Shown one piece after another: positions 3,404 to 62,681 of a stretch of 64,000 nt of DNA (position 1 is the stretch's first letter; each line of letters begins with the position of its first letter). Source of the stretch: Streptomyces sp. f51 (GTDB lineage: Bacteria > Actinomycetota > Actinomycetes > Streptomycetales > Streptomycetaceae); assembly GCF_037940415.1 (NCBI RefSeq), contig NZ_CP149798.1, positions 1,980,501 to 2,044,500 of the forward strand, in the 5' to 3' direction. Both the position numbers and the translations under genes were made by a program. Under the pieces are notes generated by a model. It was not told where the DNA came from, searched no databases, and saw only the letters and a program-made list of their open reading frames with translations.

Positions 3404-4609
3404 ATGCTGTCCGAACCGTCCGCCGTCACCGTCCGCGCGACCCTCCCCGTCGTCGGCGCCGCCATCGGCGAGATCACCGAGCGCTTCTACGCCGGGCTGT
3501 TCGCCGCCCACCCCGAGCTGCTCCGCGACCTGTTCAACCGCGGCAACCAGGCCGCCGGCACCCAGCGCCAGGCCCTGGCCGGATCCATCGCCGCCTTCGC
3601 CACCCATCTGGTCGAGCACCCCGACGAGCGGCCCGACGCGATGCTGAGCCGTATCGCCCACAAGCACGCCTCCCTCGGCGTGGCGCCCGAGCAGTACGGG
3701 GTCGTGCACGAGCACCTCTTCGCCGCCATCGTCGAGGTGCTCGGCGACGCGGTCACCGCCGAGGTCGCCGCCGCCTGGGACGAGGTGTACTGGCTCATGG
3801 CGAACGCCCTGATCGCCATCGAGAAGCGGCTGTACGAGGAGAACGCGGACGACGGGTCCCTGCGCCCCTGGGTCGTCACCGGGCGCGTCGAGGAGACCGA
3901 GGACGTCGCCAGCTTCCGGATCCGCCCGGCCGACGGCGCCCCCCTGCCCGACTTCCGAGCGGGCCAGTACGTCTCCGTGGGCGTCGAACTCCCGGACGGC
4001 GCACGCCAGATACGCCAGTACAGCCTCTCCGGCGCGCCCGGCGCCCCGGAGCGCCGGATCAGCGTCAAGCGGGTGCGCGCGGACGAGGGCACCGGGGCGC
4101 CGTGCCCCGAGGGCGAGGTCTCCGGCCATCTGCACGCCCACGTCCGCGAGGGCAGCGTCCTGGAGGTCTCCGCGCCCTACGGCGACCTGGTCCTCGACGA
4201 CACGGACGCCCCCCTCCTCATCGCCTCGGCGGGCATCGGCGTCACCCCCATGATCGCCATGCTGGAGCAGCTGACGCTCGCGGGCCACAAGGCCCCCGTC
4301 ACCGTGGTGCACGCCGACCGCTCCCCCGCCGAGCACGCGCTGCGCGCCGAGCACGAGCGGCTCGCGGGCGAACTCCCGGACGCGGAGACCCACTTCTGGT
4401 ACGAGCGGCCCGAGCCGGGCCACCCCGCCGAGCGCACGGGTCCGGCCGACCTGTCCGACGTGACCGTGCGACCGGGCACGCACGCCTACCTGTGCGGTCC
4501 GCTGCCCTTCATGCGCGCCGTACGGACCCAGCTCCTCGCCAAGGGCGTCCCCGCCCGCGACATCCACTACGAGGTGTTCGGACCGGACCTGTGGCTGGCC
4601 CGGGGCTGA
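3404..4609 (+). CDS. hmpA: Flavohemoprotein (nitric oxide dioxygenase)
   Basis: This 401-aa cytosolic enzyme converts NO to nitrate using O2 and NAD(P)H. Domain order is globin (1-140), FAD-binding (about 150-265) and NAD-binding reductase (about 270-400). Visible haem-pocket residues are the B10 tyrosine in ERFYAGLF (Y29), a distal Gln in TQRQAL and the proximal His in HKHASLG (H88). FAD contact is RQYSLSG; NAD contacts are ASAGIGVTPM and the C-terminal EVFGPDLW. An NsrR-type operator lies 68 bp upstream, and the regulator gene is convergent just 24 bp past the stop. Confidence 0.95.
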   Translation: MLSEPSAVTVRATLPVVGAAIGEITERFYAGLFAAHPELLRDLFNRGNQAAGTQRQALAGSIAAFATHLVEHPDERPDAMLSRIAHKHASLGVAPEQYGVVHEHLFAAIVEVLGDAVTAEVAAAWDEVYWLMANALIAIEKRLYEENADDGSLRPWVVTGRVEETEDVASFRIRPADGAPLPDFRAGQYVSVGVELPDGARQIRQYSLSGAPGAPERRISVKRVRADEGTGAPCPEGEVSGHLHAHVREGSVLEVSAPYGDLVLDDTDAPLLIASAGIGVTPMIAMLEQLTLAGHKAPVTVVHADRSPAEHALRAEHERLAGELPDAETHFWYERPEPGHPAERTGPADLSDVTVRPGTHAYLCGPLPFMRAVRTQLLAKGVPARDIHYEVFGPDLWLARG

Positions 4610-17679: not shown

Positions 17680-18567
17680 ATGACGCAGGTTTCGGCTGCC
17701 CAGAAGCAGCCTGCGGAGGGTGTCCTCAAGGCCGCCGGCAGCAGCAAGGCGCTGTACGGGGGCAAGAGCACCCGCCGTATCACGGTGCGCGACATCACCG
17801 CCGCCAAGGAGCGCGGCGAGAAGTGGCCCATGCTCACCGCCTACGACGCGATGACCGCGTCCGTCTTCGACGAGGCCGGCATCCCGGTCATGCTCGTCGG
17901 CGACTCGGCCGGCAACTGCCACCTCGGGTACGAGACCACCGTCCCGGTGACCATGGACGAGATGACCGTGCTGTCCGCCGCCGTCGTCCGGGGCACCAGC
18001 CGGGCCCTGATCGTCGGCGACCTGCCCTTCGGGTCCTACCAGGAGGGCCCGGTGCAGGCGCTGCGCTCGGCGACCCGCCTGGTCAAGGAGGCCGGGGTGG
18101 GCGCGGTGAAGCTGGAGGGCGGCGAGCGCTCGCACCGCCAGATCGAGCTCCTCGTCGAGTCCGGTATCCCGGTCATGGCGCACATCGGCCTGACCCCGCA
18201 GTCCGTGAACTCCATGGGCTACCGCGTCCAGGGCCGCGGCGAGGAGGCCGCGCACCAGCTGCTGCGGGACGCCAAGGCGGTCCAGGACGCGGGCGCCTTC
18301 GCCGTCGTCCTCGAACTGGTCCCGGCGGAGCTCGCGGCCGAGGTCACCCGCACCCTGCACATCCCGACCGTCGGCATCGGCGCGGGCCCCGAGACCGACG
18401 CACAGGTCCTGGTGTGGACCGACATGATGGGCCTGACGGGCGGCAAGGTGCCGAAGTTCGTCAAGCAGTACGCCGATCTGCGCCGGGTCATGGGCGACGC
18501 GGCGAAGGCGTTCGCCGAGGACGTGGTCGGCGGGACGTTCCCGCTGGAGGAGCACTCCGTCCACTGA
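17680..18567 (+). CDS. panB: 3-methyl-2-oxobutanoate hydroxymethyltransferase (ketopantoate hydroxymethyltransferase)
   Basis: This 295-aa enzyme performs the first committed step of pantothenate/CoA synthesis: alpha-ketoisovalerate plus methylene-THF to ketopantoate. Visible are the PanB N-terminal signature [20 protein letters not shown], the Mg ligand region [15 protein letters not shown], the general-base Glu stretch [24 protein letters not shown]-like [12 protein letters not shown], and IGIGAG-like [10 protein letters not shown]. About 25 extra N-terminal residues precede the core, usual in Streptomyces. ATAAGGAG precedes the ATG. Monogenic, with a strong terminator 44 bp later. Confidence 0.95.
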
Positions 18568-18610
18568 GCCTCGACGCCCCCCGGGGCATCCGAGCCACTG
18601 CGGCACCGGT

Positions 18611-18646
18611 GACAACCCGCCGATCTTCCCCCGTCGGCGGGTTGTC
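18611..18646. terminator. Terminator after panB
   Basis: Perfect 13-bp stem GACAACCCGCCGA (18611-18623) with TCGGCGGGTTGTC (18634-18646), 10-nt loop, followed by GTCGTTTCC. Confidence 0.9.
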
Positions 18647-18661
18647 GTCGTTTCCCCGTCC

Positions 18662-18809
18662 TGTCGGCCCACTGTCGGCCTGCTGTCGGCCTGCTGTCGG
18701 CCTGCTGTCGGCCTGCTGTCGGCCCACCATCGGCCTGCTGTCGACCGATTGTCGGCGACCTATCGGTGACAGTCGGGTTCTGTAGGCATCCTGTCGGTCG
18801 TTTGTCGGT
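18662..18809 (+). repeat. Phased array of heptamers (TGTCGGC) at exact 11-bp spacing; candidate SARP operator
   Basis: Ten TGTCGGC-like heptamers start at 18662, 18673, 18684, 18695, 18706, 18717, 18728, 18739, 18750 and 18761, always 11 bp apart. Seven of the ten are exact. After a 2-bp phase shift, four weaker copies follow at 18770, 18781, 18792 and 18803 (TGTAGGC, TGTCGGT, TGTCGGT among them). The last copy ends 17 bp before the ABC ATPase start. SARP/AfsR-family activators bind heptameric direct repeats 11 bp apart next to the -10 element. A SARP-like regulator is encoded at 20762-24088. Confidence 0.75.
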
Positions 18810-18825
18810 GGCGGCTGGCACCTTG

Positions 18826-19866
18826 ATGGACATGACGCGAATCGACAACACGCCCCGGCAAGCTGCGACCGGCCGCAGCGCCGTCACCGTACGGGGGCTG
18901 GTCAAGCACTACGGCGAGACCAAGGCGCTGGACGGGATCGACCTGGACGTGCGCGAGGGCACCGTCCTCGGAGTCCTCGGCCCCAACGGTGCCGGCAAGA
19001 CCACCCTCGTCCGCTGCCTTTCCACCCTCATCACCCCCGACGCCGGAACGGCCACGGTCGCCGGCTACGACGTGCTGAGGCAGCCCCGGCAGCTGCGCCG
19101 GGTGATAGGCCTCACCGGCCAGTACGCCTCGGTCGACGAGAAGCTCCCCGGCTGGGAGAACCTCTACATGATCGGGCGGCTGCTCGACCTGCCCCGCAAG
19201 GAGGCCCGCCGCCGCGCCGACGAGCTCCTTGAGCGCTTCTCCCTCACCGAGGCCGCCAAGCGCCCGACATCGACGTACTCCGGCGGTATGCGCCGCCGGC
19301 TCGACCTGGCCGCCTCGATGATCGGCAGCCCGGCCGTGCTGTATCTGGACGAGCCGACGACCGGCCTCGACCCGCGCACCCGCAACGAGGTGTGGCAGGA
19401 GGTCAAGCGCATGGTCGCCGACGGCGTCACCGTGCTCCTCACCACCCAGTACATGGAGGAGGCCGAGCAGCTGGCCTCCGAACTGACCGTCATCGACCGC
19501 GGCAAGGTCATCGCCGGCGGCCGGATCGACGAGCTGAAGGCGCGCGTCGGCGGTCGGACGCTGCGGATCCGCCCGGCGGACCCGCTCCAACTGCGGCCGC
19601 TGGCGACGATGTTCGACGAGCTGGGGCTCACCGGCCTCGCCACGACGATCGTGGACAGCGAGACCGGCAGCGTGCTGGTCCCGATCCTCAGCGACGAGCA
19701 GCTCACCGCCGTGGTCGGCGCGGTCACCGCGCGCGGCATCACGATCGGCTCCATCTCCACCGAACTGCCCAGTCTGGACGAGGTGTTCCTCTCCCTCACC
19801 GGACACAAGGCCAGTGCCCCGCAGGACGAGAACCCCGCCCGCGCCTACGAGGAGGTCTCCGCATGA
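18826..19866 (+). CDS. Drug-exporter type ABC ATP-binding protein (DrrA-like)
   Basis: This 346-aa ATPase has Walker A LGPNGAGKTTLV, Q-loop GLTGQYASVDE, signature YSGGMRRRLDLA, Walker B VLYLDEPTTGLD and H-loop TTQYMEEAEQL (Q in place of the usual histidine, a known DrrA-type variant). A C-terminal DrrA extension of about 100 residues is present. It resembles daunorubicin-resistance ATPases that power antibiotic or lipid export. The start at 18826 (MDMTRIDN) was chosen over longer frames because these run through the repeat array; no strong Shine-Dalgarno is seen. ATGA overlap with the permease gene. Confidence 0.92.
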   Translation: MDMTRIDNTPRQAATGRSAVTVRGLVKHYGETKALDGIDLDVREGTVLGVLGPNGAGKTTLVRCLSTLITPDAGTATVAGYDVLRQPRQLRRVIGLTGQYASVDEKLPGWENLYMIGRLLDLPRKEARRRADELLERFSLTEAAKRPTSTYSGGMRRRLDLAASMIGSPAVLYLDEPTTGLDPRTRNEVWQEVKRMVADGVTVLLTTQYMEEAEQLASELTVIDRGKVIAGGRIDELKARVGGRTLRIRPADPLQLRPLATMFDELGLTGLATTIVDSETGSVLVPILSDEQLTAVVGAVTARGITIGSISTELPSLDEVFLSLTGHKASAPQDENPARAYEEVSA

Positions 19867-20693
19867 GCACCGCCACCGCCACCGCCGAAGCCCCCCTCGT
19901 CGTCGAGGCCGACGCCCGTATCTCGCCGCGCGCGCACGCCCGCCACATCGGCGCGCTGATCCGCCGCAATCTGCTGTGGATCCGCCAGGACCCCGAGTCG
20001 ATGTTCGACGCCGTCCTGATGCCGATCATCTTCACCCTGCTGTTCGTGTACGTCTTCGGCGGCTCCATCGGGCAGTCGCTGGGCGGCGGCCAGGACAAGT
20101 ACGTGCAGTACGTGATGCCCGGCCTGATGGCGATGACGACCATGAACATGGCGACAGCCGTCGGCACCGGCTTCAACGAGGACTTCCACAAGGGGGTGAT
20201 GGACCGCTTCCGCACCCTGCCGATCGGCCGGGGCTCCGTGCTCTTCGCCAAGCTCGTGGTGGAGCTCATGCGGATGGTCGTCGCCACCACGATCCTCATG
20301 GTCGTGGGAGTGCTGGTCGGCTTCCACATCACCAACTGGCCCGGCCTGTTCGCCTCCGTGGGGCTCGCCACCCTGTTCGCCTCGGCCCTGATGTGGATCT
20401 TCCTGGTCCTCGGGGTGACGATGAAGAACGCCCAGTCCGTGCAGGCGATGGGCTTCCTGGTGCTCTTCCCGCTCCAGTTCGGCTCGTCGATCTTCTCGCC
20501 GACCGCGACCATGCCCGGCTGGCTCCAGACCTTCACCGACTACAACCCGCTGTCCAACCTCGCGGACACCGCCCGCGGCCTGATGGTGGGCGGCCCGGTC
20601 GCGCACAGCCTGTGGCTGACCCTCGGCTGGACGGCGGCCCTCACCGTGGTCATGGCGCCCATCGCCATCCACAAGTTCCGCACCAAGAGCTGA
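19863..20693 (+). CDS. ABC-2 type permease (DrrB-like)
   Basis: This 276-aa permease has six predicted helices of the ABC-2 type. Conserved pieces are NLLWIRQDPESMFDAVLMPIIF at the start (read in parts), FNEDFHKGVMDRFRTLPI, FPLQFGSSIFSPTATMPGWL and YNPLSNLADTARGLM. It pairs with the preceding ATPase, with which it overlaps by 4 nt (ATGA). Together they form a two-gene exporter; the substrate is unknown. Convergent with the SARP-like regulator gene 68 bp downstream. Confidence 0.92.
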   Translation: MSTATATAEAPLVVEADARISPRAHARHIGALIRRNLLWIRQDPESMFDAVLMPIIFTLLFVYVFGGSIGQSLGGGQDKYVQYVMPGLMAMTTMNMATAVGTGFNEDFHKGVMDRFRTLPIGRGSVLFAKLVVELMRMVVATTILMVVGVLVGFHITNWPGLFASVGLATLFASALMWIFLVLGVTMKNAQSVQAMGFLVLFPLQFGSSIFSPTATMPGWLQTFTDYNPLSNLADTARGLMVGGPVAHSLWLTLGWTAALTVVMAPIAIHKFRTKS

Positions 20694-20761: not shown

Positions 20762-23700
20762 TCAGATCAGGGCGGTGGCCTCCTCCAGGGAGAGGCCGCC
20801 GCCCTCCGCGTACGCGGCCTCGTACGCCGTGTCGCCGAGGAGGGTGCGCGCGCCTGTCTCGGCCCGCTCGCGCACCTCCACCTCCATGGGGCCGGGGAAG
20901 TGGCCGGGCGGCAGCAGGGCGTCCGAGGCACCGAGGAGCCGGGCCGCGTCCACGGCCCGGCCGCCGCCGTCCAGACCGTTCAGGGCGATGGCGGCCGTGG
21001 TCAGATGCGCGGAGGGCATGTGCGGAGCGATCATCCGCGACAGCCGGTCGCCCGACCGCTCCAGCGCCACGCGCACCTTGTCCAGGGCGCTCTCGTTCCG
21101 CCCGTCGATCGCGTCCAGCCACGCCTCGGCACCGAGCATGAACCCGTCGAACAGAACGAAGGAACCGGCCCCGAAGTCCTGCCGCAGCAGCCGTATCTGC
21201 TCGCGCGCCTCTGCGGTCCTGCCCTTGCGGCCGAGCCAGATCGCGAGGAAGAGATGGGCCGCCGGCATGGCCTCGTTGTGGGCGCCCTGCCCGGTCGCGA
21301 GGACCTCACGGATCATCCGCTCGCCCCGCTCGGGCTCCCCCAGCTCCAGGTACATGCTGCCGAGCCGGACGTTGAGCACCGCCGTCTGGGCCCGCGCGCC
21401 GAGCCGCTCGGCGTACTTCGCCGCCTCCGCGTAGTCCGCGGCGGCGGCCCGGAAGTCGCCCTTGCGCTCATGGGCCTCGCCGCGCGCGGAGAGCGATTCC
21501 GCCGCGCCCCAGGCGTCCCCGATACGGCCGAAGAGCTCCAGTGCCTCGTCGGCGTCCACGGTGGCGTCGCCCGCCATCTCGGTGCGGTTGGCGAGGATGT
21601 TGGCCCGCATCTGGAGGGCGGTGGCCAGCTCCCAGTCGTAGCCGAGTTCCCGGCAGGTGCTCACCGTCTTGTTGATCACCTCGGTGAACCGCTCCATCGT
21701 GCCGGTGAGCAGGACGGCGTAGAACCAGAGGTAGCCCGGGGTCCGGCAGGTCTGCGGCATGCCGGGCTCGTAGGTCGCCCCGATGACGCGGAGCTTCTCC
21801 TGGGCCTGCGGGGTCTGCCAGGCGCCCATGTCCATGTCCATATAGGCGAGATGGACGAGGTGCACTCCGCGGCGGGCCTCTTCGAGGACCTCCTCGCGCA
21901 TCGGCGGCGGGAAGTCCGTGCAGCGTTCGTACAGCGGGGCGGCCGGGCGTACGGGCGGGGCGAAGGGGTCGGGGCCGAGACCCATCACCTCCAGGGACCA
22001 GGCGCGGGCGTCGACGCGCTGGTCACGGACCTGCCAGTACCAGGTCAGCGAAAGGACCATGCACAGCGCCTCCTGCTCGTCGCGCTCGGCGACGGCGTGC
22101 CGCAGGGCGGTGCGCAGGTTCTCGTACTCGCGCTCGATCAGGTCGATCGCGGCCCGCTGTCCGGGTCCGCGCAGCAACGGGTCGGTGGTGCGGGCGAGTT
22201 CGCGGTAGTACGTGAGGTGGGCGCGCTCGGTGTCCGCGCGGGCGCCGGACGCGTCGAGGCGTTCGCCCGCGTACTCGGCGACGGTCTCGAGGAGGCGGTA
22301 GCGCATCCCGCCGTCCCCCTCGCCCGAAGGGGCCGCGACGACCAGCGACTTGTCGACGAGGGAGCCGAGGACGTCCAGCGCGGCCGGGCCGCAGAGGGCT
22401 TCGGCGGCGGCGAGGTCGCAGCCTCCCGCGAACACGGACAGCCGCCCCAGGGTGTCGCGTTCGGCCTCGTCGAGCAGATCCCAGGACCAGTCGACGACGG
22501 CGCGCAGGGTCTGCTGGCGGGGCAGCACCGTGCGGCTGCCCGAGGTGAGCAGCCGGAAGCGGTCGTCGAGCCGGTCGGCGATCTGGCGCGCGGTGAGCAT
22601 CCGCAGCCGGGCGGCGGCGAGTTCGATGGCGAGCGGCAGGCCGTCGAGGCGCCGGCAGATCTCGGCGGCCGCCTCGGGGTCGTCCTCGACGCGGAAGCCG
22701 GGCCGGGCGGCCGCTCCCCGGTCGGCGAGCAGCCGCAGCGCGACGGGTTGTGGCAGCGGGTCCACCGGGCGCAGCAACTCCCCCGGCACACCGAGGGGTT
22801 CGCGGCTGGTGGCGAGGACGGTCACGCCGGGACAGCGTTCCAGCAGCGCCTCGGCGAGGTGCGCGGCGGCGTCGACGACGTGTTCGCAGTTGTCGAGGAC
22901 GATCACCATGCGGCGCTTGGCGCAGTGTTCGGTGAGCCGGGTGAGCGGGTCGTCGTGCCGGTCGGCCACGGCGCGCATCTCCTCGGCACCGGCTCCGCGC
23001 AGCACGGTCTCACGGGCGCCGACGGCGGTCAGCACGGCCTCGGGCACGGCCTTCGGGTCGTCCACCGGGGCCAGTTCGGCCAGCCACACCCCGTCCCGCG
23101 GGGCGGGGGCCAGGGCCTCTGCCGCCTCCTGGGACAGGCGTGTCTTGCCCGCCCCGCCGGGCCCGAGCAGGGTCACGAGCCGCGCCGTCGCGAGATCGCC
23201 CCGGATGGCATCGATGTCGTGCTCCCGCCCCACGAAGGACGTGAGCCGGGCGCGGAGGTTGCCGGGCGGCGGGACGGCGGGGCGGGCCGCCTCGGGCCCG
23301 CCGACGTTCCCCGCGGCGCGGGCCTGCGGGCCGTTCGCCCGGGCGGCGGCGCCGGTCTCGGCCGGGCGGAGCAACTCGGCGTGCAGGGAGCGCAGTTCGA
23401 CGCCGGGATCGGAGCCGAGGCGATCGGCCAGCAGCCGCCGTACGTCCTCGTACGCGGCCAGGGCCTCCGCCGTGCGGCCCACGTCCCGCAGAGCGCGCAG
23501 CCGCAGGGCCTGGAGCGGCTCGTCCAGGGGGTGGGAGTCGCACAGGGCGGTCAGCTCGGGGAGGACCGATCCGGCGTGGCCGAGGGCCAGGGCGGCGGTG
23601 AGGCGGGCGCAGCGGGCGTGCAGGCGACGGGTCTCCCAGTGCGCCGCCTCGGCGGTGCGGTCGGGGAGGTCGGCGAGGGCGGGCCCGCTCCACAGGGCCA

Positions 23701-24088
23701 GGGCGTCGTCGAGGAGGACGGCGGCCTTGGCGGGGTCCCCGTCCGCGACGGCGCGGGTGCCTTCACCGGCGAGCCGCTCGAAGCGGTGCAGGTCGACGTC
23801 GTCCGGCACGGCTTCGAGGCGGTAGCCGCCCTCCGCCGAGGCGACCGCGTCCGCGCCCACGGCCCGGCGCAACCGCCCGACCAGCGCCTGGAGCGCTCCG
23901 GGTGCGTCGGCGGGCGGGTCGCCGTCCCACACCTCGTCGACCAGGACGACCGCGGGAACGGTCCGTCCGGGCCGCAGCGCGAGAACGGTCAGCAGAGCAC
24001 GCAGCCGCGCCCCGCCGACCGGGACGGGCGTGCCGTCGGGGCGAAGTGCCTGGGTGGTGCCGAGGATGCGGTAGCGCACGGGGTCCAT
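20762..24088 (-). CDS. SARP/AfsR-like regulator: BTAD + NB-ARC-type ATPase + TPR
   Basis: This 1108-aa cytosolic regulator begins with an OmpR-type winged helix (MDPVRYRILGTTQALRPDGT to about residue 90). A BTAD domain follows (about 95-245; DDVDLHRFERLAGEGTRAVADG). Next is an AAA/NB-ARC-like ATPase (about 285-580) with P-loop LLGPGGAGKTRL and Walker B MVIVLDNCEHV. The C-terminal half is helical TPR-like (ALELFGRIGDAWGAAESLSARGEA). This is the AfsR architecture; such proteins activate secondary-metabolite and related genes by binding 11-bp-spaced heptamers. Such an array precedes the convergent ABC exporter. The ATG at 24088 gives the standard domain start. Confidence 0.9.
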   Translation of the reverse strand: MDPVRYRILGTTQALRPDGTPVPVGGARLRALLTVLALRPGRTVPAVVLVDEVWDGDPPADAPGALQALVGRLRRAVGADAVASAEGGYRLEAVPDDVDLHRFERLAGEGTRAVADGDPAKAAVLLDDALALWSGPALADLPDRTAEAAHWETRRLHARCARLTAALALGHAGSVLPELTALCDSHPLDEPLQALRLRALRDVGRTAEALAAYEDVRRLLADRLGSDPGVELRSLHAELLRPAETGAAARANGPQARAAGNVGGPEAARPAVPPPGNLRARLTSFVGREHDIDAIRGDLATARLVTLLGPGGAGKTRLSQEAAEALAPAPRDGVWLAELAPVDDPKAVPEAVLTAVGARETVLRGAGAEEMRAVADRHDDPLTRLTEHCAKRRMVIVLDNCEHVVDAAAHLAEALLERCPGVTVLATSREPLGVPGELLRPVDPLPQPVALRLLADRGAAARPGFRVEDDPEAAAEICRRLDGLPLAIELAAARLRMLTARQIADRLDDRFRLLTSGSRTVLPRQQTLRAVVDWSWDLLDEAERDTLGRLSVFAGGCDLAAAEALCGPAALDVLGSLVDKSLVVAAPSGEGDGGMRYRLLETVAEYAGERLDASGARADTERAHLTYYRELARTTDPLLRGPGQRAAIDLIEREYENLRTALRHAVAERDEQEALCMVLSLTWYWQVRDQRVDARAWSLEVMGLGPDPFAPPVRPAAPLYERCTDFPPPMREEVLEEARRGVHLVHLAYMDMDMGAWQTPQAQEKLRVIGATYEPGMPQTCRTPGYLWFYAVLLTGTMERFTEVINKTVSTCRELGYDWELATALQMRANILANRTEMAGDATVDADEALELFGRIGDAWGAAESLSARGEAHERKGDFRAAAADYAEAAKYAERLGARAQTAVLNVRLGSMYLELGEPERGERMIREVLATGQGAHNEAMPAAHLFLAIWLGRKGRTAEAREQIRLLRQDFGAGSFVLFDGFMLGAEAWLDAIDGRNESALDKVRVALERSGDRLSRMIAPHMPSAHLTTAAIALNGLDGGGRAVDAARLLGASDALLPPGHFPGPMEVEVRERAETGARTLLGDTAYEAAYAEGGGLSLEEATALI

Positions 24089-48210: not shown

Positions 48211-48603
48211 ATGGCGGATCACCTCGCAAGCGACGGCACGGACCCCTGGCCCACGATCGACCTGTTGCACGCCTGGCTGGACGCCGGACGGGCGCACGGC
48301 GGCCGGGAGGGGGTGCTGCTGCGGGTCCTGAAGCTGTCCGAGGAGGTCGGCGAGGTCGCCCAGGCGGTGATCGGCGCGACCGGCCAGAATCCGCGCAAGG
48401 GCGTGAGCCACACCTGGGACGACGTCCGTTCGGAGCTGTGCGACGTGGTGATCACGGCGATGGTGGCGCTGCGCACGCTCGCGCCGGACGCGCGCGAGGT
48501 CTTCGCCGCCCATCTGGCGTCCGTCGCCGGCCGTTCGCTCGGCGGGCCGTCGGCCGGGACGCCGTCCGGCGGCCGTTCGAGCGGTGGACCGTCAACTCCC
48601 TGA
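48211..48603 (+). CDS. MazG-like nucleotide pyrophosphohydrolase
   Basis: This 130-aa all-alpha NTP-PPase has the metal-binding ExxE...ExxD pattern KLSEEVGEVAQAVIG and SELCDVVITAMVAL. It hydrolyses nucleoside triphosphates, perhaps damaged ones, to monophosphates. The C-terminal 25 residues (SLGGPSAGTPSGGRSSGGPS) are low complexity. The reading frame ends inside the first copy of a 26-bp tandem repeat, which may have shaped that tail. GGGGGAGG precedes the ATG. Confidence 0.85.
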   Translation: MADHLASDGTDPWPTIDLLHAWLDAGRAHGGREGVLLRVLKLSEEVGEVAQAVIGATGQNPRKGVSHTWDDVRSELCDVVITAMVALRTLAPDAREVFAAHLASVAGRSLGGPSAGTPSGGRSSGGPSTP

Positions 48604-48750
48604 CGGGGCCCCGTACATGCCTCCCTGACGGGGTCACGCACATGCCCTCCCTGACGGGGTCACGCACATGCCCTCCCTGACGGGGTCACGCACATGCCCT
48701 CCCTGACGGGGTCACGCACGTGCCCTCCCTGACAGGGCTCGTACATGCCT
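48597..48750 (+). repeat. 26-bp tandem repeat, six copies
   Basis: Copies beginning TCCCTGACGGGGTCACGCAC start at 48597, 48622, 48648, 48674, 48700 and 48726. The spacing is 26 bp (first 25), and the middle copies are identical. It lies between the MazG-like gene and the rnpB terminator. No spacers of varied sequence are present, so this is not a CRISPR array. Confidence 0.9.
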
Positions 48751-50124: not shown

Positions 50125-51311
50125 CGGCCCGCGGCGCGTCTTGAACGCTGTTGCGCCCCGGGCGGGGGCGGGAGCACGCTCGCTCGGTACGCCGCGGGGG
50201 TCACCCCGAGCACCCGGCGGAACCAGCGGGTCAGATGCGCCTGGTCGGCGAAGCCCACGAGGGCCGCGACCTCGGCGGGGCGCAGTCCGGACTCCAGGAG
50301 CCTGCGGGCCCGGTTCACCCGGTGCTGGGCCAGCCAGGCGTACGGCGGTATCCCCGTCGTCGTCCGGAAGGCGCGCAGGAGCTGGTAGCGGGACAGTCCC
50401 AGGTCCAGGGCGAGGGAGGCCAGGGAGGGCGGGTCCTGGAGCTCGTCGGCCAGGCGGTCGCGTACGGCCTCGGCTATGCGCGCGGCGCCGGGGACCTCGT
50501 CGCGGTCCGGGCGGGCGGTGGAGTGGCGCCGGGTCAGCGCGGCGAGCAGCCAGGGGAGGCGGGACTCGGCCTCCAACGGGTCCGGGCAGAGGCTCAGTTC
50601 GGTGTGCGCGGCGCGCAGCGCGGCGGCGAGTTCGGGGTCGTCGAGCAGTCCTTCGCGGAAGTGCGGGAGTCCGCCGAGGGCGCCCTCGCGCAGCAGGGAC
50701 GGCTCCGCGTACAGGGCGCGGTAGGCGTAGCCGTCGCAGGCGGCGGGGCCGCCGGTGTGCATCTCGCCGGGGGCCAGGACGACGATGGACCCCGGGCCGG
50801 TGCGCAGCTGGCCGCCCCGGTAGCCGATGAGCTCCGAGCCGCCGACGCTGACGCCGATGGTGAACTCGTCGTGGGCGTGCGGGGCGTAGCGGTGCCGGTC
50901 GAAACGGGCGGTCAGCAGGTCGAGCGGCCGGCCGTCCCGGCCGAGGGTGGCCCGGGTCCAGCGGGTCTCCTCTTTCCCGGAGAACCCGGTCGTGCCGCTG
51001 CCGGGGTGCTGGGCCGTGCCACTTCCGGGGTGCGTGGTCGTGCCGCTGCCCGGGTGCCTGGTCACGCCGTCCCCGGGGTGCCGGGTCGTGCCGCTGCCGG
51101 GGGGCTGGGCCGTGCCACTTCCGGGGTGCGTGGTCGTGCCGCTGCCCGGGTGCCTGGTCACGCCGTCCCCGGGATGCCGGGTCACGCCACTGCCCGGGAG
51201 CGTGGTCGTGCCACTGTCCCGGTGCTGGGCCGTGCAGCTCCCGGGGTGCGTGGTCACGCCGTCCCCGGAGTGCCGGGTCGTGCCGTTCCCGGCGTACTCG
51301 GTCCTGGCCAC
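50121..51311 (-). CDS. AraC family regulator with expanded N-terminal repeat
   Basis: This 396-aa protein has a cupin-type AraC ligand domain (about 125-250; RYAPHAHDEFTIGVSVGG ... IVVLAPGEMHTGG). A C-terminal double helix-turn-helix follows (about 285-385; SLASLALDLGLSRYQLLRAF and AEVAALVGFADQAHLTRWFR). Residues 13-108 are twelve 8-aa repeats such as RHPGDGVT and THPGSGTA. The GTG at 51311 follows AAGGGGGAG; translation might also begin after the repeat, near TRWTRATLGRDG. It is coupled to the EamA transporter it probably regulates, a common AraC-exporter pairing. Confidence 0.82.
   Translation of the reverse strand: MARTEYAGNGTTRHSGDGVTTHPGSCTAQHRDSGTTTLPGSGVTRHPGDGVTRHPGSGTTTHPGSGTAQPPGSGTTRHPGDGVTRHPGSGTTTHPGSGTAQHPGSGTTGFSGKEETRWTRATLGRDGRPLDLLTARFDRHRYAPHAHDEFTIGVSVGGSELIGYRGGQLRTGPGSIVVLAPGEMHTGGPAACDGYAYRALYAEPSLLREGALGGLPHFREGLLDDPELAAALRAAHTELSLCPDPLEAESRLPWLLAALTRRHSTARPDRDEVPGAARIAEAVRDRLADELQDPPSLASLALDLGLSRYQLLRAFRTTTGIPPYAWLAQHRVNRARRLLESGLRPAEVAALVGFADQAHLTRWFRRVLGVTPAAYRASVLPPPPGAQQRSRRAAGR
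50988..51275 (-). repeat. 24-bp coding tandem repeat with 96-bp higher-order period
   Basis: Twelve 24-bp units encode 8-aa repeats. Four-unit blocks (RHPGDGVT, RHPGSGTT, THPGSGTA, Q-PGSGTT) repeat almost exactly, giving a 96-bp super-period. The frame is kept throughout. The outermost units (e.g. THPGSCTA, QHRDSGTT) are degenerate. Confidence 0.9.
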
Positions 51312-60239: not shown

Positions 60240-62681
60240 ATGACGGCCGGTGCGAGAGAACCCCTGGTGCAGAGCGGGCACGCGAGCGGCGCCGAGTACG
60301 GTGACGCCGCGAGCCGGTGGGCCGCTCCTCCCGGCTGTGTGATCACCGCCGACGGCGCCTACGGGGCACGGCTCGCCCACGACGGCGAGCGCTGGTACCC
60401 GGAGCGCTGGACGCTGGACGGACCCGAGCCGTACGCCGTACCGCTGCCCGGTCCGCAGCCGGAGGAGCCCGGCACCGAGGTGCTGCCGCTGTCCGACGGC
60501 AGGGTGCTGATCCATCGCGTGGACGACGGACGCCACACCTTCGCCCTGCTGTACCCGACCGGTCCCGGCACGGGCGAGCTTCCGCTCGGCGCGGTGGAGT
60601 GTCCCGACGCCGGCACGGTGCTGCGGCTGCTGCCGCCCTCGCCGGACGGCGAACGTGCCTACGCCCTCGCGGTGGGCCGGGGATCGACGGCGGTGTGGCT
60701 GGTGGCGGGCGGCGCGTTCGGCCCGGAGCATCTGGCCGAGGTGCCGGGCCACTGCTCGGGCGGGGTCTGGCTGGACGGGACGGGGCGCCTGCTCGCACTG
60801 GACCGCTCCCTGCACGGCCGCACCAAGACCGTGGTCGTCGACCTGGAGCGGAGCGGCGAGGTGTCGCCGCTCCTCCAGATCGCGGAACACAGCAACGACC
60901 GCCTGCTCCTCGCGGACGCGGACAGCGGGCTGCTGCTGATCCGGTCCGACGCTCCCTCTCCGGGCCGGGACCGGCTCGGCTGGGGCGTGCTGGGCAGCAC
61001 CCTGCCCGTCCGCTTCCCGGACTGTCTGAGCGCGACGGGCTGTTCGATCAGCCCGTTCGCGATCCAGCCGGGCCAGGTGCTCACCCCCGAGTCCTGCGCG
61101 GTCGCCCTGCGCCTCGACGGGCCGGGCGGCACCTGGGTGGGGGTGTGGCGCCCGTCCGAGCGGCGGATCCACCATCGCCCCGCGCCCGAGGGCTGGCTGC
61201 CCGGCACCGGGCTGTGGACCGCGGAGGGAGTGCTCCGGCTGCCGTACGTCACCGGGGGCGTCCCCTGTGGTGTCGCCCGGCTGGATGCCTCCGAGGAGGA
61301 GCAGAACACGGGGGATCCGGCTCTCCCCGGCCTCCCCGCACCCCGGCCGGTCCCCCTCCAGCAGGCGCCCCTGCGGACCGCACGCCCGTCCGGTCCGTCC
61401 CCGCAGTCTCCGGCGGTCATCGACCCGCCCCGGGCGATCCCCGCCCATCTGGCACTGAGCGACGGCATCGCCCGCGCCCGCAAGGACGCGGCGGCCCGCG
61501 CGGCCGAGGGGCCCCTGGCAGCGGGGACAGGTGCGGGCGCCGTGCCCGGAGGGTCCTGGGCATCGCAGGCCGGCGCGGGCCCCGTGCCCGAGGGATCCTG
61601 GGCATCGCAGACCGGTGCCGGCCCCGCACCCGAGGGGTCCCCGGCATCGCAGACCGGTGCCGGCCCCGCACCCGAGGGGTCCCCGGCATCGCAGACCGGT
61701 GCGGGCCCCGCACCCGAGGGATCCCCGGCATCGCAGACCGGTGCCGGCCCCGTGCCCGAGGGCCCGGAGACGCAGTCGACGGTGACGAGCCTCATCCTCA
61801 GGACCTCGCCCGCCGGGGTGCCGGGGGCCGACCCGCACTCCGGCCACCGGGCGGACGGGGAGCTGCCCCCCGTCGTACCGCTCCCGGGAGGGGAGGCCGA
61901 ACCGCTCCCGCCCGCCGTGCCGCGTGCGCCCGAGGCCACCGGACCGGTGCGGCCCAGCCGCTGGACCCGGGTCCCCCGGCCGCCCACGCCCATGATGTCC
62001 GCGTCCAGGCCCACGCAGCCGGCGCCCACGACGTCCGCCCCCATGCCCATGGAGTCCATCGGTACGTCGCCCGCGCCCATGGCTCCCGCGCCGCAGCCGG
62101 CGCGCCGGGCCGCGCCCGCCGGAACACCGACGACCGAGCCGGGCCTCTGGACCAAGGTCGCCGAGACACCCCCGCCCGGTATGGGCCTGCGGACCAGGGC
62201 CGACGGGACGCTCCCGGGCGGCATGACCGTCGTCATCGAGACGACCGAGCCGATTCCACCGGCCATGCCGGTCGGTGCCGGCCTCGGCACGGACACCTAC
62301 TCCACGGCGGACACCGACACAGGCACCACCACCGGCACCGTCGCGGCCGCCAAGGCACAGGCCCCGGCCCCGGCCCCGGTCGCACCACTGCTCTGGACCA
62401 AGGTCGCCGAGACACCCCCGCCCGGCATGCGCTTCGGCACCCGCACGCGGTCGGCTTCCCCGGACGGCACCGCTCCCGGGAACGGGACCCCCGACGGTCC
62501 GCCGCCCGTCGGCGAGTTCAGGGGCCAGGTCACCCTGCGCCCCCTCCCCCCCGCCCCGCACACACCCGGGGACGCGGAGTCCGGCGGTCCGTGTGTACTG
62601 GCCCACACGGACGAGGAGAAAAGGGACGGCACGGGCGAAGAAACGTCACCCTCCGACTCCCGTGCGATGACCGCACGTTAG
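60240..62681 (+). CDS. Large Streptomyces hypothetical protein with 14-aa repeats
   Basis: This 813-aa cytosolic-looking protein is not recognised. Residues about 25-370 look beta-rich, like a propeller (PEPYAVPLPGPQPEEPGTEV; VLIHRVDDGRHTFALLYP; VWLVAGGAFGPEHLAEV; LLLADADSGLLLIRSD). Residues about 370-813 are Pro/Ala/Gly-rich and disordered. They hold six 14-aa repeats (GAGPAPEGSPASQT, 61530-61781) and two copies of LWTKVAETPPPGM. A near-perfect GGAGGTGA precedes the ATG at 60240, which was chosen over an ATG-less longer frame. Divergent from the Nif3 operon; it may be a scaffold or phosphorylated adaptor, but this is a guess. Confidence 0.75.
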   Translation: MTAGAREPLVQSGHASGAEYGDAASRWAAPPGCVITADGAYGARLAHDGERWYPERWTLDGPEPYAVPLPGPQPEEPGTEVLPLSDGRVLIHRVDDGRHTFALLYPTGPGTGELPLGAVECPDAGTVLRLLPPSPDGERAYALAVGRGSTAVWLVAGGAFGPEHLAEVPGHCSGGVWLDGTGRLLALDRSLHGRTKTVVVDLERSGEVSPLLQIAEHSNDRLLLADADSGLLLIRSDAPSPGRDRLGWGVLGSTLPVRFPDCLSATGCSISPFAIQPGQVLTPESCAVALRLDGPGGTWVGVWRPSERRIHHRPAPEGWLPGTGLWTAEGVLRLPYVTGGVPCGVARLDASEEEQNTGDPALPGLPAPRPVPLQQAPLRTARPSGPSPQSPAVIDPPRAIPAHLALSDGIARARKDAAARAAEGPLAAGTGAGAVPGGSWASQAGAGPVPEGSWASQTGAGPAPEGSPASQTGAGPAPEGSPASQTGAGPAPEGSPASQTGAGPVPEGPETQSTVTSLILRTSPAGVPGADPHSGHRADGELPPVVPLPGGEAEPLPPAVPRAPEATGPVRPSRWTRVPRPPTPMMSASRPTQPAPTTSAPMPMESIGTSPAPMAPAPQPARRAAPAGTPTTEPGLWTKVAETPPPGMGLRTRADGTLPGGMTVVIETTEPIPPAMPVGAGLGTDTYSTADTDTGTTTGTVAAAKAQAPAPAPVAPLLWTKVAETPPPGMRFGTRTRSASPDGTAPGNGTPDGPPPVGEFRGQVTLRPLPPAPHTPGDAESGGPCVLAHTDEEKRDGTGEETSPSDSRAMTAR
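61530..61781 (+). repeat. Six coding 42-bp tandem repeats
   Basis: Units start at 61530, 61572, 61614, 61656, 61698 and 61740; the middle three are almost identical (GAGPAPEGSPASQT). The frame is preserved. Confidence 0.9.

Follow-up and report, generated by a model that had tools for sequence, protein, structure and literature searches.

The window, a stretch of 64,000 nucleotides from Streptomyces sp. f51, contains a locus composed of panB, two genes of a DrrAB-like exporter and a convergently oriented gene encoding a large SARP-type regulator; an array of heptameric direct repeats lies in the 265-bp gap that separates panB from the exporter (Table 1). Compared with the daunorubicin resistance (DrrAB) exporters, the ATPase is of the same kind, passing the TIGR01188 drrA cut-off (396.8 vs 312.45 bits) and containing the DrrA C-terminal domain, whereas the permease misses the drrB subfamily cut-off (67.1 vs 223.05 bits) and is a general ABC-2 permease according to Pfam. 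The regulator gene most likely starts at 24088 (MDPVRY), although a longer GTG frame reaches 24151. Its product exceeds the cut-offs of PF00486, PF03704 and PF13191, reaches that of the PF12424-type TPR_12 (PF13424) exactly, and thereby has the domain set of large SARPs (OmpR-type winged helix, BTAD, NOD/STAND and TPR). These domain matches and the start at 24088 agree with the first-pass annotation, made from the letters alone, which had described a SARP/AfsR-like protein convergent to the exporter and had seen no obvious biosynthetic cluster for the export system. The solved relatives of the regulator at E ≤ 0.001 are AfsR and EmbR only, the AfsR chains aligning with residues 11-679.

Table 1. 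Genes and predicted elements of the exporter locus (positions within the window).
Feature	Position	Strand	Remarks
panB (ketopantoate hydroxymethyltransferase)	17680..18567	+	Pfam PF02548; precedes the exporter in most relatives
Inverted repeat 3' of panB, probable terminator	18602..18655	+	22-nt arms, 82% complementary
Upstream module	18662..18771	+	Ten units at 18662 + 11n; eight score as sites
CAGTCGG (eleventh unit of the first-pass annotation)	18770..18776	+	Score -36; probably no site; inside the 20-bp hinge
Three-unit core operator (predicted)	18781..18809	+	11-bp steps; column counts in 181 promoters
CACCTT, putative -10 element	18819..18824	+	Last-position T in 181/181 promoters
DrrA-like exporter ATPase	18832..19866	+	Start ATG 18832; likely leaderless
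DrrB-like exporter permease	19863..20693	+	PF01061; under the drrB model cut-off
Large SARP-type regulator, convergent	20762..24088	-	Winged helix, BTAD, STAND-type ATPase, TPR; proposed array binder

TRF and a repeat search identified an 11-bp tandem array from position 18661 and a second 11-bp register (18770, 18781, 18792 and 18803), which is 2 bp out of phase with the first. The gap between panB and the exporter contains nine copies of TGTCGG (mean of 0.29 and maximum of 4 in 5000 dinucleotide shuffles) and six exact 11-bp TGTCGG pairs (shuffle maximum of 0), on the basis of which a chance origin was rejected and the array confirmed as real. Elsewhere in the 8.15-Mb genome there is one exact TGTCGG-N5-TGTCGG, located within a CGNR zinc-finger gene. 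The array had been described as ten TGTCGGC heptamers at 11-bp intervals, followed after a 2-bp phase shift by four weaker ones. Ten units with this spacing do begin at 18662, but only seven of them are exact TGTCGGC, the order being six TGTCGGC, CATCGGC (18728), TGTCGAC (18739), TGTCGGC and TATCGGT (18761). A 20-bp step leads from this upstream module to the core. The shifted register and three of its four units, TGTAGGC (18781), TGTCGGT (18792) and TGTCGGT (18803), which begin at -51, -40 and -29 relative to the start codon, were recovered as the core, and the unit at 18770 was lost on its score. CATCGGC (-8) also scores as a non-site, while TGTCGAC (0.5) and TGTAGGC (4.1) are weak; with CAGTCGG and CATCGGC discounted, about 11-12 of the 14 claimed units are credible. 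The exporter start conserved in relatives is the ATG at 18832, not 18826, which leaves 22 bp after the last heptamer (18803-18809) and not the 17 bp given earlier.

Exporter matches (E ≤ 1e-120) were found in 111 of 121 genomes of the genus and regulator matches (E ≤ 1e-150) in 106. The comparison covered 112 exporter loci (one genome has two) and the best 80 GTDB loci found via the regulator. A regulator match, in some cases partial or diverged, lies downstream of the exporter in 110 of the 112 loci; in the other two the sequence stops about 1 kb past the exporter. A first anchoring kept 104 of the 112 loci; one count of upstream units used 103 of these, excluding a locus whose start distance was odd. 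A broader anchoring rule kept 188 of the 192 loci, corresponding to 181 distinct Streptomyces promoters. Because this rule uses the motif and accepts a promoter only with an ATG 27-30 bp behind the last unit, unit sequence and start distance are favoured by the selection; outside the rule, a T at +21 is present in 181 of 181 promoters and TG at +13/+14 in 172 and 179 of them. The three proximal units all fit the unit rule in 161 of the 181, and 340 of 342 core steps measure 11 bp. Pairwise identity is 0.88 for the heptamer columns, 0.50 for the linkers and 0.31 for the flank (-100 to -60), with unit column 8 more conserved than the other linker columns (0.67 vs 0.47). Heptamers at 11 bp with less conserved linkers, as anticipated in the first-pass annotation, are thus kept genus-wide, and the predicted operator that is conserved is the three-unit core.

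The distance from the start of the last unit to the start codon is 29 bp in 146 promoters and 28 bp in 35, and a Shine-Dalgarno-like word occurs between them in 19 of 181; a leaderless message is therefore likely. The putative -10 hexamer, placed by the invariant T and lying 9 bp from the last heptamer in the window, reads CACTGT in 15 of the 181 promoters and CACCTT in 26, including the window. With the -10 element placed in this way, the promoters correspond to SARP operators, whose heptamers are spaced by 11 or 22 bp and whose 3' repeat overlaps the -35 region and is separated from the -10 element by about 8 bp.

An alternative view takes the entire array for a plain tandem repeat with no regulatory function, and we give it next to no weight: TRF does call a tandem repeat and the copy number differs between species, but the sequence, spacing and start distance of the core are conserved in the 181 promoters and the arrangement recurs in other families. 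The comparison of linkers with heptamers, proposed earlier as the means of recognizing a simple repeat, divides the array. The core stands as a predicted operator, and only the six 5' units, within the window genome, have the properties of a simple repeat; their linkers are almost as uniform as the heptamers, so that the 5' block by itself resembles the product of a recent tandem duplication.

The number of units differs widely among the 181 promoters: two in 10, three in 64, four in 44, five in 43, six in 13, seven in four, nine in two and 11 (strict count) in one, that of the window. The next highest number being nine, the expectation that more than ten units would be exceptional held. At least one upstream unit is found at -100 to -25 in 111 of the promoters, and upstream units occupy 206 of 13756 positions, as against 37 of 50167 control positions counted by a slightly different rule. 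The next unit above the third lies at a distance of 9 bp (14 promoters), 10 bp (18), 11 bp (11), 12 bp (9), 20 bp (17), 21 bp (10) or 22 bp (5); other distances are rarer, and 61 promoters have no unit inside 45 bp. In 88 promoters the next unit is no more than 24 bp away, and in 72 of these it departs from the 11/22 register; further upstream the 11-bp spacing resumes (68 of 82 steps of 9-12 bp). The 2-bp phase shift is a recurrent hinge in the genus and does not represent decay. Strict 11-bp phasing throughout was considered and rejected; phasing of 10.5-10.6 bp to the core fits the upstream positions slightly better (R of 0.768 vs 0.730 at 11.0 bp, values too close to decide between the periods), which suggests that the hinge may restore the DNA face of the upstream units. 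The exact alignment of units on one DNA face, which the first-pass annotation had derived from one helical turn per unit, does not follow from 11-bp steps alone, as every unit adds a drift of about 0.5 bp when a turn measures 10.5 bp.

On the exporter tree, with units counted in the 110 bp ending at the last unit, there were at least 46 changes between core-only and extended promoters and at least 15 changes involving long arrays. The closest relatives of the window (L031, L142 and L032) have the proximal part in common with it and lack the ten-unit block, and L032 and a further locus, L047, expanded the upstream module independently, with other linkers or a 10-bp period. The window block is hence regarded as a recent expansion, and by comparison of these loci the long upstream block is most likely lineage-specific. 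In L047 (identical with L189), the upstream module has a 10-bp period, with TGTCGGTGCG repeated six times consecutively; the upstream steps of L286, from another family, also measure 10 bp.

Whether such a block affects expression may be considered in the light of PimR, a SARP-LAL regulator. As reported (PMC5930380), PimR binds at pimM as cooperative monomers to operators of three and two heptamers with 4-bp spacers; the suggested optimum is three heptamers, the addition of an adjoining fourth brought no substantial gain, and a second triplet raised pimM transcription almost 5-fold. The exporter promoters are similar, as far as that account goes, in the heptamer triplet with 4-bp spacers and the presence of a second operator, and differ in that a three-unit core is combined with an upstream module of variable length and the target is an exporter and not a regulator gene. 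By analogy, the PimR data resemble the natural pattern of a core plus a second module, and caution against assuming that more units in one run have a greater effect. One reading holds that the core is the operator of the neighbouring regulator, whereas the ten-unit block arose neutrally when a site was duplicated in tandem and does not affect expression; we give it slightly less than an even chance. The near-identical linkers of the 5' units, the absence of the block from close relatives, the separate expansions in L032 and L047, the rapid turnover on the exporter tree and the ineffective fourth PimR heptamer are all in its favour, but upstream units are common in the genus, their usual displacement from the core register is unlike plain duplication of core units, and a second PimR triplet had a marked effect (PMC5930380). 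The long upstream block may act as the graded switch put forward in the first-pass annotation.

The regulator itself is related to AfsR without being its orthologue, scoring 205.9 bits against the 1430 bits of the NCBIfam cut-off (NF053617). In the alignment, the DNA-contact residues W74, P79, R92 and R94 of AfsR are kept, K95 is replaced by R, R87 by Q, T88 by A and S91 by G, and the arginine that reads the T at repeat position 3 is retained; T88, where the regulator has alanine, is described as highly conserved in the work on AfsR (PMC10936776). The same work places 11-bp direct repeats at -40 and -29 of afsS, with CACTGT as the -10 element, gives the heptamer as CGTT(T/C)ATCG and reports that AfsR touches the initial 8 bp of every repeat, leaving the final 3 bp free. 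The exporter system is similar in the order of winged helix, BTAD, NOD/STAND and TPR, in the units of the window at -40 and -29 when the start codon is taken as +1, in the eight conserved columns of the exporter promoters, which fit the 8-bp contacts, and in a poor -10 of the CACTGT type. It differs from AfsR in the orthologue score, in the TGTCGG units of its promoters, in the linkage to one exporter and in the number of units, 3 to 11 as against the two described at afsS. Small SARPs such as ActII-ORF4 and DnrI also have heptameric repeats near the -35 element, whereas they are presented in a review (PMC10972967) with sites of two or three heptamers, targets in antibiotic clusters and no STAND or TPR part.

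From the observed sequence, conservation and geometry of the repeats, their co-occurrence with the regulator and exporter and their recurrence in other families, we infer that the array is very probably the operator of the convergent regulator, which would activate the DrrAB-like exporter, its binding to the core recruiting RNA polymerase to a leaderless promoter. Winged-helix/BTAD protomers would bind one per 11-bp unit, and those on the -40 and -29 units would touch RNA polymerase and compensate for a weak -35 element in the manner of AfsR at afsS, with transcription beginning at or near the exporter start codon. The third unit (-51) would complete the core, and the upstream units may carry more protomers, bound side by side. 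DNA binding would probably be gated by a signal through the STAND ATPase and TPR parts. In the window lineage, tandem duplication would have brought the upstream module to ten units. MalT-type STAND activators also oligomerise and bind several direct repeats, with a DNA-binding domain unrelated to that of the SARP-type regulator.

The neighbour could alternatively bind the array as a repressor, or the array could be a decoy titrating the regulator. Atr32, a medium-sized SARP, is reported as a negative regulator (PMC10972967), and many sites could titrate a protein; nevertheless, the last two units are positioned as in the activating afs box, and a search of six genomes retrieved no strong three-unit site other than the exporter promoter, which makes either role improbable. 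In these six genomes, a relaxed three-unit search was used to look for a multi-promoter regulon, a possibility that was rejected: with zero or one mismatch only exporter promoters were retrieved (in five of the six genomes), the exporter promoter of G091 requires two mismatches, and totals up to three mismatches resemble those of a reversed-pattern control.

The proposal that the neighbour is the binder of the array draws on synteny, panB loci without an exporter match, paralogue loci, class-wide pairing and the association of recognition helix and heptamer. Nine of the ten genomes of the genus that gave no exporter match could be checked via panB, and in the 1.5 kb behind panB in these nine there is no 11-bp TGTCGG-type pair. 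G057 contains exporter and regulator remnants and G030 regulator fragments. In L272 (genome G079; assembly 78% complete) the regulator lies directly behind panB on the same strand, and the exporter and array are absent, an arrangement that suggests a natural deletion or rearrangement.

Paralogous regulators (50-55% identical) are convergent to a gene for a siderophore-interacting protein (PF04954/PF08021 in the two loci tested) in L259, L260, L261, L262, L269, L289 and L293, and all seven promoters of this gene carry units at 11-bp spacing that read TGTCGG, TGTCGA or TGTAGG or differ from these by one base; as L259 and L262 are alike, there are fewer than seven independent loci. Three-unit clusters around paralogues number 11 at 11 bp vs nine at 10 bp, and 51, 62 and 45 at 9, 12 and 15 bp (codon multiples). 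By count, 11 bp hardly exceeds 10 bp and falls behind the codon multiples, and the argument from the siderophore loci therefore rests on place and sequence, not on number. TGCCAG triplets at 11 bp were observed in L283 (about position 3940), L287 (about 3542) and L288 (about 8879), beside a third paralogue type; the gene adjoining the L288 repeats has no Pfam family match. The idea that every paralogous regulator has repeats beside it was rejected: they were found at the seven siderophore-interacting-protein loci, at L283, L287 and L288 (with the other heptamer) and at the exporter loci, and are absent from the remaining paralogue loci inspected.

Since the recognition helix is identical, other paralogues of the same genome could bind too. 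That the main binder is another SARP-type protein, such as paralogue G000:C1:3475607 (60% identical over residues 25-727), is nonetheless unlikely. This protein shares the recognition helix (ALQALIGRLRR/ALQALVGRLRR), and TGTCGG-type pairs are missing around its own gene, but it is the convergent regulator that stays linked to the exporter throughout the genus and in other families, and differently placed paralogues have repeats at their own neighbour.

Outside the genus, a convergent regulator-exporter pair with TGTCAGC repeats recurs in other actinobacterial families. A class survey revealed a regulator match (E ≤ 1e-110) in 56 of 197 genomes, 16 of them Streptomyces, and the best 40 regulator places outside the genus were compared. 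A DrrA-like exporter (>40% identity) is convergent to the regulator in 30 of these best 40 places, which together with L286 from the order gave 31 distant promoters. TGTCAGC pairs (≤2 mismatches together) at 11 bp are present in 24 of the 31, the other seven failing this two-unit test, and in 1.1% of 620 random pieces; at 7, 8, 9, 10, 12, 13, 14, 15 and 16 bp, such pairs occur in 0, 0, 1, 7, 13, 2, 0, 0 and 1 of the 31 promoters, respectively.

The dominant heptamer parallels helix position 7 (aligned with AfsR S91). In the distant set, in which TGTCAG prevails, 30 of 31 regulators have S there; in Streptomyces, in which TGTCGG prevails, 146 of the 160 readable regulators have G. L346 and L283/L287/L288 have T at helix position 4, K at position 7 and TGCCAG repeats. 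Within Streptomyces (160 of 181 readable), a G in the helix is accompanied by G as base 5 of the last unit in 133 of 146 cases, and an A or S in the helix by A as that base in 13 of 14. This association (Fisher, 3e-11) is the best of 63 columns, the next reaching 3e-4. Corrected for relatedness, there are six independent supported pairs, of which about 3.3 agree and none oppose, and the p value is not significant. The rule is one-sided, because 13 of 26 A-type promoters carry a G-type helix.

The known roles of SARPs lie mainly in the activation of antibiotic clusters, with two or three heptamers per SARP site listed in a review (PMC10972967); in the present case, the pairing of a large SARP-type regulator and its repeats with an exporter is found across the genus and several other families. 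As the module has one promoter and one target, the signal sensed by the STAND-TPR part becomes testable. The natural series of 2 to 11 units, with its spacing variants, provides a ready set for studying whether output depends on additional operator units, and the correspondence between helix and heptamer gives a starting point for work on the DNA specificity of SARPs. A more far-reaching reading, which we put forward tentatively and with considerable doubt, is that of an ancient actinobacterial one-regulator/one-exporter module, in which a fixed polymerase-recruiting core would be joined by a face-restoring hinge to an expandable upstream module of fast-evolving copy number, which would set exporter output through a chain of regulator protomers (here about 11, with side-by-side and STAND contacts). 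As far as our searches show, the kind of system is known, and the variant and its scale are new within the literature searched; among the matches listed, which were mostly at abstract level and included few subscription journals, no recognisable printed description of the regulator-exporter-repeat arrangement was found, nor was any paper on SCO2257-SCO2260, which we take to be the S. coelicolor counterparts. Other tandem repeats are also present in the window, namely six copies of a 26-bp repeat at 48596-48749 and repeats of 24/96 bp and 42 bp at 50988-51292 and 61491-61784, respectively.
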